Source: a virus. Taken from it: 32,771 bases of DNA. Under the pieces are notes generated by a model that was not told the origin of the DNA, did not search any database, and was given only the letters and a program-made list of their open reading frames with translations. The stretch spans positions 1 through 32,771 of the IMG/VR virus record IMGVR_UViG_3300009184_000123, one strand, 5' to 3'. Shown here piece after piece: positions 3,845 through 5,463 of this stretch (position 1 is its first letter; each line of letters starts with the position of its first letter). The position numbers and the translations under genes are program-made.

Positions 3845-4477
3845 ATGGCAATCACAGCAAAAAAAGGCGAAGCGTTCGAAAAAGAATTAATCGAAGCAGG
3901 GAATTATGTAGCACGTTGTTACAAAATGATTGAAATCGGAACCGTTGAAGAAGAGTTTTTGGGCGTAAAAAAACAAATGCACAAAGTTCGTATCGGTTGG
4001 GAGTTACCAACGGAATTAAAAACGTTTAACCCTGAAAAAGGCGAACAACCGTGCGTTATAGACAAAGAATACACGTTGAGTTTAGCCGATAAGGCAAATT
4101 TGCGCAAAGATTTACAAAGTTGGAGAGGCAAAGCGTTTTCGGACGACGAAGCCGAAGCGTTTGACATTACAAAACTTTTAGGGGTTCCCTGCATGTTAAA
4201 TATTATACACGTTCAGGGAAAAAAAGACCCAACAAAAACATATCAGGCAATCGGGAGCGTTTCCCCAATGCCAAAAGGTTTGGTTTGCCCGCCACAGGTT
4301 AACGACACGTTTGTTTTTGATTATGAAAATTTCGACGACGAAAAATTTAATTCATTGCCTGACTTTTTAAAAGAACAAATAGTAAAAACACCTGAATACA
4401 AAGAAGCGATTTCACAAACTGTTGAAGCGTCGCCGTTTTTTACAAATTTAGAAGACAACGACGAAAGTTTTATTTAA
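3845..4477 (+). CDS. probable single-stranded DNA-binding protein (phage SSB-like)
   Basis: A 210-residue protein with features of phage SSB-like proteins: an N-terminal beta-rich region starting with GNYVARCYKMIEIG, a central segment LRKDLQSWRGKAF followed by FDITKLLGVPCMLNIIH that recurs in phage replication-module proteins of this type, and a short acidic C-terminal tail (NLEDNDESFI) ending in a bulky residue, like the protein-interaction tips of SSBs. It would coat single-stranded DNA during replication and recombination. Position upstream of the initiator-like protein, ATPase, NinB and NinG fits. The start at 3845 has the ACAGAAATTATG leader. The binding role is inferred from motif memory and context. 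Confidence 0.6.
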   Translation: MAITAKKGEAFEKELIEAGNYVARCYKMIEIGTVEEEFLGVKKQMHKVRIGWELPTELKTFNPEKGEQPCVIDKEYTLSLADKANLRKDLQSWRGKAFSDDEAEAFDITKLLGVPCMLNIIHVQGKKDPTKTYQAIGSVSPMPKGLVCPPQVNDTFVFDYENFDDEKFNSLPDFLKEQIVKTPEYKEAISQTVEASPFFTNLEDNDESFI

Positions 4478-4486
4478 AAAAATTGT

Positions 4487-4494
4487 TATATTTG
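4487..4494 (+). promoter_or_regulatory. candidate promoter -7 element upstream of the structured element
   Basis: TATATTTG matches TAnnTTTG exactly, 10 nt after the SSB-like stop. No exact TTG lies at the usual distance; GTTTTA near 4467-4472 is the nearest candidate. TTGCAAT (4492-4498), overlapping the element, is an inverted repeat with ATTGCAA (4517-4523), which could be an operator. Transcription would begin near 4498. Confidence 0.45.
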
Positions 4495-4497
4495 CAA

Positions 4498-4591
4498 TTG
4501 TAATGAAGTGAGACGCATTGCAACCGTAAAATATTATAAAACCCTATCAGAAAGGCACGTCTCACAACAGCCGATTTGATAGGGTTTTTTT
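4498..4591 (+). ncRNA. putative structured small RNA or attenuator with interlocked stems
   Basis: A stretch of about 94 nt with no useful ORF, beginning at a TAnnTTTG element and ending in a terminator. Two perfect inverted repeats interlock: GTGAGACG (4508-4515) with CGTCTCAC (4558-4565), and AAACCCTATCA (4539-4549) with TGATAGGGTTT (4577-4587). The order is A-B-A'-B', so both stems can form together only as a pseudoknot, or else compete. The second stem is followed by T-rich sequence and so doubles as a terminator. It may be a free small RNA or may control read-through into the gene at 4632. I know of no named family that matches. Confidence 0.5.
4539..4591 (+). terminator. terminator stem of the structured element
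   Basis: AAACCCTATCA (4539-4549) pairs with TGATAGGGTTT (4577-4587), 11 bp, around a 27-nt loop; the T-run covers 4585-4591. The long loop is unusual for a plain terminator and contains CGTCTCAC, which can pair upstream. Confidence 0.7.
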
Positions 4592-4631
4592 AATCAAATA
4601 GTTTATTGGTATCTTAAAACCTTTATTTATT

Positions 4632-4865
4632 ATGGCAAAATTTGAATTAAAATTTTTAGATTTTTTCGGACAACACTTTGTAAAAGTTGAAAAAAAAATA
4701 ATTGAACTTCACACAAAAAACAAAGACGTAATACAAATCACAATCGCAAGTCATAACGGTTTAGAATTGTTTATAAATTTAGACAAATCAACAGCGATAA
4801 AATTCGCAAAAACAATTCGTACCGAAATAAACAAAATCACAGAAAGCGAGGGCGAAAATGAATAA
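4632..4865 (+). CDS. hypothetical protein, 77 aa
   Basis: Not recognised. The 77-residue product alternates beta-like stretches (FELKFLDFFGQHFVKVEKK, VIQITIASHNGLELFINLD) with a C-terminal helix (KSTAIKFAKTIRTEINKI) and an acidic tail. Its last eight bases overlap the next start. It is the first gene downstream of the structured element and may be subject to its read-through control. Confidence 0.65.
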   Translation: MAKFELKFLDFFGQHFVKVEKKIIELHTKNKDVIQITIASHNGLELFINLDKSTAIKFAKTIRTEINKITESEGENE

Positions 4866-5463
4866 ATTGACCAAAAGAAAAGGTTTCAATTTTTTTCGTT
4901 CCTACTTCGACGTTTACAATGAGTTAGAAACAATTGAGGACAAAGTCGCGTTTATAGACGCATTGTTGGAGCGTCAATTTATGGGTATTAAGCCAACCAA
5001 TTTGAAAGGAATGGCAAAATTTGCTTATATAAGTCAAACAAATAGCATTGACAGTCAGGTTAAAGGTTACGAAGACAAAACGGGAAATATTTTGACCCCT
5101 ACCGTAGGGGGTGCCGTAGGGGGTATGGGTACCCCTTGCCAACAAGTAGAAGTAAAAGAGAAAGTAAAAGATATTAACCTGTCGGTTAATTGGGAAGGAC
5201 TTTTAAAACAGTTTAATTTAATTACAAATAAAAAAATTAAAGTTGTTGACGAAAAAACAAAACGACAAGTTAACGCAAGGTTAAAAGAGGGTTATACAAA
5301 AGCCGATTTAGTTTTGGCGATTACTAATTGTTATAATGACGACTACCATAAGGAAAACCCGAAATATTTAACACTCGAATTTATTAGCAGACCCGACAAA
5401 ATGCAAAAATATTGTCAGGAATTTAAAAACACAAAACCAACTAAAAAAATCGATAAATTATGA
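4858..5463 (+). CDS. putative replication initiator (DUF6291-like N-domain plus conserved phage C-terminal domain)
   Basis: A 201-residue two-domain protein. Residues 8-76 (GFNFFRSYFDVYNELE... KGYEDKTGN) match my memory of DUF6291 proteins, which resemble phage replication-organiser N-domains. A Gly/Pro linker covers 77-105. Residues 110-187 (NKKIKVVDEKTKRQVNARLKEGYT ... YLTLEF) resemble the TIGR02220 phage C-terminal domain of replication proteins. It would bind the origin and load the helicase; the RecA-fold ATPase lies two genes on. The linker DNA (5095-5136) holds iteron-like repeats, as in lambda O. Start and stop overlap both neighbours. The initiator role is inference from domain layout and context. 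Confidence 0.6.
   Translation: MNKLTKRKGFNFFRSYFDVYNELETIEDKVAFIDALLERQFMGIKPTNLKGMAKFAYISQTNSIDSQVKGYEDKTGNILTPTVGGAVGGMGTPCQQVEVKEKVKDINLSVNWEGLLKQFNLITNKKIKVVDEKTKRQVNARLKEGYTKADLVLAITNCYNDDYHKENPKYLTLEFISRPDKMQKYCQEFKNTKPTKKIDKL
5095..5136. repeat. iteron-like GC-rich repeat cluster (possible origin)
   Basis: Within 42 bases of the linker of the initiator-like gene there are two tandem copies of CCGTAGGGGGT (5102-5112 and 5114-5124), an inverted ACCCCTAC (5095-5102) and a palindromic GGGTACCCCT (5127-5136). All share a GGGGT/ACCCC core. The patch is strikingly G-rich for this genome. Lambda-type phages keep origin iterons inside the initiator gene at the same relative place. Confidence 0.45.

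Follow-up and report, generated by a model that had tools for sequence, protein, structure and literature searches.

A conserved kissing-hairpin RNA ahead of replication genes in phages of Flavobacterium-like bacteria, a candidate attenuator leader

The locus and the predicted RNA

The window analyzed here is the whole 32,771-nt stretch of the virus record IMGVR_UViG_3300009184_000123 in IMG/VR. The element under study lies in a 154-nt gap (4478-4631) between the gene for a 210-aa protein and an operon that begins with a 77-aa ORF (Table 1); it sits before DNA-replication genes of viruses infecting Flavobacterium-like bacteria. A preliminary description made from the letters alone (hereafter the sequence-only reading) placed this gap between SSB-like and initiator operons. 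The downstream assignment agrees with the PHROG_428 match of the operon's second product, a replication-initiation-like protein; the SSB-like label is unconfirmed for the window, because the 210-aa protein matches only PHROGs of unknown function (best, PHROG_862). In Moomin phages, the gene upstream of the element is annotated as PF11325.

The 77-aa protein belongs to no Pfam or PADLOC family, its PHROG is of unknown function, and searching PDB with its sequence returned chance matches only. Structure prediction gave a beta4-alpha fold (pLDDT 85) that weakly resembles the ssDNA/RNA-binding folds of PC4/Sub1 and PUR-alpha; the best Foldseek match of the model in PDB (E 0.19) is below significance. 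Speculatively, the protein may bind nucleic acid and could act as an autoregulator. Its C-terminal LDKSTAIKFAKTLRTEINKI is highly conserved. A small separate hairpin, of the general form NNGT-ATCTTAAA-ACNN, shows covariation among 39 relatives and ends about 10 nt before the 77-aa ATG; it is embedded in a conserved stretch (AATAGTTTAT..CTTAAAAC) that is present where the 77-aa gene follows. A translational operator or an unusual promoter are possible roles for this hairpin.

The RNA downstream of the promoter box would be about 92 bases long and consist of two hairpins joined loop to loop. All strings named in the sequence-only reading were found at the positions it gave; P1, P3 (inside P2), and the small hairpin at 4608-4621 had not been part of it. 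The loop of P1 (GUGAGACG) is complementary over 8 nt to the apical loop of P2 (CGUCUCAC), so that the A-B-A'-B' order of the strands corresponds to a loop-loop kissing pseudoknot. Calculated energies are −5.0 kcal/mol for P1, −22.4 kcal/mol for P2/P3, and −11.7 kcal/mol for the kissing duplex. The nested fold alone reaches −28.6 kcal/mol (z = −5.1), a value equaled by 0/200 shuffles, in keeping with the earlier judgment that two long stems in this gap are unlikely to arise by chance. In a growth simulation restricted to nested pairs, P1 formed first, followed by A:A' at approximately 66-78 nt and by the terminator from approximately 84 nt; since P1 permits A:A' to form as a pseudoknot, the kissing helix can arise ahead of the terminator arm and persist alongside it. 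The sequence-only reading had also considered two competing folds, a view that captures both pairings and is incomplete because P1 allows them to exist together as kissing hairpins. The window holds no second copy of the element, and one antisense echo of the hairpin at 4535-4621.

Table 1. Features of the element and its downstream genes (window coordinates; "cells" are alignment pair cells)
Feature	Position	Strand	Remarks
Promoter box TATATTTG	4487-4494	+	Candidate Bacteroidota-type -7 box TAnnTTTG, by consensus
P1, 5'-terminal hairpin, arms TTGTAATG/CATTGCAA	4498-4523 (arms 4498-4505/4516-4523)	+	6-8 bp; 10-nt loop AAGTGAGACG; 100% of cells paired; two-sided changes in one pair
P1 core	4500-4505/4516-4521	+	Core of the P1 arms
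Kissing strand A GTGAGACG, inside P1 loop	4508-4515	+	Partner 4558-4565; 99.7% of cells paired and two-sided changes in 6/8 pairs, in a set partly selected on kissing
A-rich linker (..GTAAAATATTATA)	4524-4538	+	ATTATA in 39/60 unselected elements
P2, terminator-like hairpin	4539-4587 (4539-4550 with 4576-4587)	+	12 pairs, 8 with two-sided changes; 98.9% of cells paired
P2 arm strings AAACCCTATCA and TGATAGGGTTT	4539-4549; 4577-4587	+	Read directly in the sequence
P3, inner stem GGC/GCC	4554-4572 (4554-4556/4570-4572)	+	Closes apical loop; two-sided changes in 3/4 consensus pairs
Kissing strand A' CGTCTCAC, in P2/P3 apical loop	4558-4565	+	Complement of strand A
U-run of intrinsic-terminator-like 3' end	4585-4591	+	T-run in the sequence
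Small separate hairpin GGT-ATCTTAAA-ACC	4608-4621	+	Before 77-aa start codon; alignment A4, 2/4 pairs co-vary
77-aa ORF (PHROG_33177)	4632-4865	+	First gene downstream; predicted beta4-alpha fold
Replication-initiation-like protein	4858-5463	+	Next gene of operon; PHROG_428, E 1.8e-9; Phg_2220_C, E 1.3e-5

Homologs, covariation, and genomic placement

Querying phages with an 801-bp region by blastn identified 46 Flavobacterium phage records, with alignments centered on the gap and reaching its edges only. A degenerate pattern search of IMG/VR returned 74 stretches; true matches carry an 8-nt loop-loop complement (7 nt in FCOV-S1) and chance matches one of 0-5, so the length of this complement separates the two groups cleanly. 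Further homologs were obtained with another pattern and by searching with the downstream 77-aa protein. RNAalifold, applied to 38 distinct sequences, predicted P1, P2, and P3 independently, with two-sided changes in 12/22 pairs. When the kissing helix is included, 99.3% of pair cells among 38 distinct homologs are standard, and two-sided changes at 18/30 pairs (6 of them in the kissing helix) make a predicted structured RNA class well supported; 0/500 shuffles, and no slid register, came near the real pairing. This alignment set (A2) was gathered partly by requiring at least 7 bp of kissing, and its kissing statistics are biased for that reason. The pseudoknot of the sequence-only reading is borne out by compensatory changes in both of its stems, and its broader proposal of a new structured RNA with a promoter-like box and a terminator-like 3' end is likewise supported by these comparisons.

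A covariance model built without the kissing pairs (R1) matched 55/80 loci fetched via the 77-aa protein only, at a constant position just 5' of the gene. In divergent R1 matches (L139, L182, L134, L149, L162), the loops still pair, with the sequence replaced or the strands swapped; in loci lacking an R1 match (L129, L130, L138, L147, L158), the anatomy can still be recognized, with kissing strands that bear no relation to the others. A blind count of P1, kissing helix, P2, and T-rich tail recovered the arrangement in 61/65 distinct regions upstream of the 77-aa gene, a set anchored on the protein and not selected on kissing, as compared with 20/650 shuffles (3%) and 7/325 other windows. Three of the four misses show the anatomy by eye, and the fourth has its element before a preceding duplicate gene. 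A search of this kind for homologous gaps lacking one stem, the condition under which the sequence-only reading would have failed, did not overturn it. Scanning 936 kb of fetched loci with a descriptor that covers the complete anatomy gave 104 instances, and the dinucleotide-shuffled version of that sequence gave 0; these counts required a promoter-like box and include related phages.

Among 81 elements, 42 distinct kissing strings occur. In one sub-class (L139 at 3856, L182 at 3866, L129, L131, L163), the kissing strands are exchanged, with the pyrimidine-rich strand in P1 and the purine-rich strand in the terminator loop. Across divergent copies, conservation is limited to the pairing, a short A-rich linker, and the frame of promoter and U-run. 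The kissing helix pairs are purely Watson-Crick, and G-U pairs occur in P1 and P2; because the complementary strand would have A-C mismatches in place of the latter, they point to the + strand RNA as the molecule under selection.

The surroundings of the element are similarly regular. An exact TAnnTTTG, an established Bacteroidota promoter consensus, lies just 5' of P1 in 54/60 protein-anchored elements, as compared with 2.6% by chance, and P1 starts 2-6 nt after this box in most elements. In 80/81 elements, 4-7 T are found within the 8 nt after the stem, though some U-tracts are interrupted (TTTTACTTTTT). In 80/81 distinct elements, an ORF of 45 aa or more begins with its ATG 6-53 nt downstream on the same strand, the remaining element being at a locus end; an ATG-ORF within 53 nt is thus found for 80/80 testable elements. 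The corresponding rate is 27% for random sites and 23% behind other terminator-like hairpins of these loci, and part of the closeness is expected from phage gene packing. For 23 elements the distance to the ATG is at most 23 nt, with no TAnnTTTG between P1 and ATG. The genes that follow encode the 77-aa protein, NUMOD4/HNH and GIY-YIG endonucleases, AAA_24, a PIF1/UvrD-like helicase, Prim-Pol/DUF3987, and a ResIII helicase.

The element occurs in isolated phages (Muminvirus, Lillamyvirus, Ficleduovirus, and Cellulophaga phage phi19:1) and in many environmental phages. Cellulophaga phage phi19:1 has one copy; several phages have two or three, placed ahead of different genes and mostly with different kissing strands, the multi-copy genomes being FCV-1 (35876, 40361), G002 (three, two of them alike), G003, G006, G001, G004, and G005. 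The two like copies in G002 (L257, 2009 and 4780) are a near-identical pair of a divergent element before two different genes, apparently a recent duplication. Homing endonuclease genes (NUMOD4/HNH, GIY-YIG) have their own leader copy at L243 40361, L118 3500, L123 318, L230 3211 (− strand), L219 10333 (− strand), L023 5446, and L174 1774, as if such genes travel with, or adopt, the kissing leader.

Proposed attenuation and alternative readings

At the level of sequence comparison, the helices, the kissing helix, their conservation, their fixed place between promoter box and start codon, and the presence of several copies per genome are established. A frame of promoter, structured RNA, terminator-like hairpin, and start codon, repeated within genomes, would fit a cis-acting leader; in the window, the element lies on the same strand as the gene behind it, between that gene and a promoter judged by consensus, and includes a terminator-like hairpin. 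We interpret it as a phage leader that acts in cis and may form a new class, an attenuator in which a kissing loop locks an intrinsic terminator, in preference to a free antisense or copy-control RNA. That it serves as the 5' leader attenuator of the operon starting at 4632, with its terminator hairpin clasped by the kissing helix, seems to us reasonably probable, and among the options of the sequence-only reading, attenuation of the downstream replication genes is the best match.

Transcription would probably start at about 4498-4500 from the promoter box, and P1 would fold at the extreme 5' end, presenting its 8-nt loop strand. The apical-loop strand of the second hairpin would pair with this loop on emerging, P2/P3 and the U's would stop part of the polymerases at about 4591, and the kissing helix may tune read-through. 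The leader would thereby set the amount of transcription entering the downstream genes, which would make it a transcription attenuator with a clasped terminator hairpin, most likely an on/off switch or a dimmer for the gene behind. The second conserved pairing, the kissing helix, prevails in nested folding until the terminator arm has emerged and is topologically compatible with the terminator; as the pseudoknot leaves the terminator arms unused, this is not a textbook mutually exclusive antiterminator. Our guess as to direction is that the kissing helix, forming ahead of the terminator, slows or strains it and so favors read-through; a less favored possibility is the opposite effect, a locking of the terminator.

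More tentatively, and with confidence well short of even, the element may be a new RNA control device of Bacteroidota phages, in which the kissing helix itself sets read-through with no ligand or sequence-specific partner, and which a genome employs repeatedly, ahead of several of its replication and homing genes. If so, the mostly different kissing sequence of each copy would prevent cross-pairing between copies. Given that copies within one genome have unlike loops, a regulator would be expected to recognize the shape or the A-rich linker rather than the loop sequence. A refinement of the attenuator, conceivable and rather doubtful, would have an RNA-binding protein of phage or host origin, possibly the 77-aa product itself, attach to the kissing complex or this linker and turn termination on or off across a regulon of all copies. 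The several copies per genome, the recurrent ATTATA linker, and the weak likeness of the 77-aa predicted fold to ssDNA/RNA-binding PC4/PUR folds are consistent with such a protein; however, the fold similarity (best PDB E 0.19) is below significance, and some copies do not have the 77-aa gene immediately after them.

We consider it unlikely that the element is instead a free small RNA of about 92 nt acting in trans, as a protein decoy or shape-specific binder, with the downstream gene served by its own promoter. Such an RNA would have its own promoter-like box and terminator-like end, hairpins protecting both ends, and a strongly conserved structure, as seen here; additionally, the 77-aa group has a conserved 40-nt stretch between terminator and ATG, and the AATAGTTTAT..CTTAAAAC stretch could hide a non-canonical promoter that would leave the RNA free. 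Against this, the element is always co-directional with an ORF starting 6-53 nt downstream (80/80 testable), 23 cases have no room for another TAnnTTTG promoter in the 23 nt or less that are available, and the downstream genes are many and different, with several copies per genome carrying different loops. The free small RNA of the sequence-only reading is weakened by these placements, and the specific roles proposed there, copy control or pairing with a host target, were rejected: the loops are satisfied internally and are not conserved, turning over completely, even within one genome, which makes a trans antisense role unlikely.

Less probable again is a cap for mRNA stability, whereby the kissing pseudoknot shields the 5' end of the early mRNA against degradation and P2, with its U-rich end, is no true terminator. 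In most elements P1 begins close enough to the promoter box to lie at the 5' end or next to it, the loops can vary in sequence under a constant shape, and some U-tracts are interrupted; but the nearly universal T-rich tail and the long P2 stems look like selection for termination. A role of the inverted repeats in DNA, as operator or origin sites for a protein, is largely refuted and very improbable: the element is near replication genes and its kissing helix is purely Watson-Crick, but spacing varies (44-58 nt), sequences differ even within one genome, and the P1/P2 G-U pairs and fixed promoter/terminator frame point to RNA.

Gene control in Bacteroidota phages is, to our knowledge, very little explored. 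It is unusual for a shape to be conserved while its kissing sequences change freely and differ from copy to copy; the element may reveal how tertiary contacts can tune terminator hairpins, and could yield a compact, sequence-programmable expression part.

Comparison with known RNAs

Neither the window nor its relatives matched an Rfam family at the gathering threshold, and the hits listed at E ≤ 10 reflect chance. The element bears some likeness to skipping-rope RNA, a family with a pseudoknot (PMC7779021) that has been reported from phages (PMC8501573). However, the skipping-rope model (RF02924) comprises an outer closing stem and a hairpin junction, whereas the present RNA has two hairpins in series plus kissing; this family was rejected after tests on phage records and 395 Bacteroidota genomes, with no match at E ≤ 10 in 10 phage records carrying the element. 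A search of 395 Bacteroidota genomes with R1, under strict filters and without a positive control, found none, and a pattern scan of 84,980 genomes returned 32 loci, the best of which (R1 score 26.3 bits, E 0.044) is unconvincing. A chromosomal origin was rejected on the strength of these two scans, in which no bacterial genome gave a convincing match. A literature search of partial coverage found no description of the element.

Type III toxin-antitoxin RNA (ToxI) is similar as a phage or plasmid pseudoknot RNA followed by a terminator and then a gene. This assignment was rejected: the tandem repeats that are a feature of Type III antitoxins are absent from 4300-4900, and the 77-aa product, which has no Pfam or PADLOC family, is not recognizable as a ToxN/AbiQ/CptN-like toxin. 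Attenuators that use intrinsic terminators (trp, pyr, and riboswitch leaders) share a 5' leader between promoter and first gene, a terminator-like hairpin, and a U-run; in contrast, the second pairing here joins the loop of a 5' hairpin to the apical loop of the terminator, not to the terminator arms. Inspection revealed neither a leader peptide nor a conserved aptamer core, and a metabolite riboswitch was rejected because a conserved sequence core (aptamer) is absent across divergent copies.

The put RNA of phage HK022 is another phage leader in which two hairpins directly follow an early promoter, but it acts on downstream terminators; we know of no kissing loop in it. A further structural analogy is with kissing-loop complexes (ColE1 RNA I/RNA II, HIV DIS) and H-type pseudoknots, which have a loop-loop helix of 7-10 bp; the P1 loop, with two unpaired 5' purines and a kissing strand abutting the 3' arm, is analogous to the loops of such RNAs. 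Unlike in ColE1 RNA I/RNA II and HIV DIS, the contact here is intramolecular, from a 5' hairpin to a terminator hairpin, and its sequence turns over between copies.
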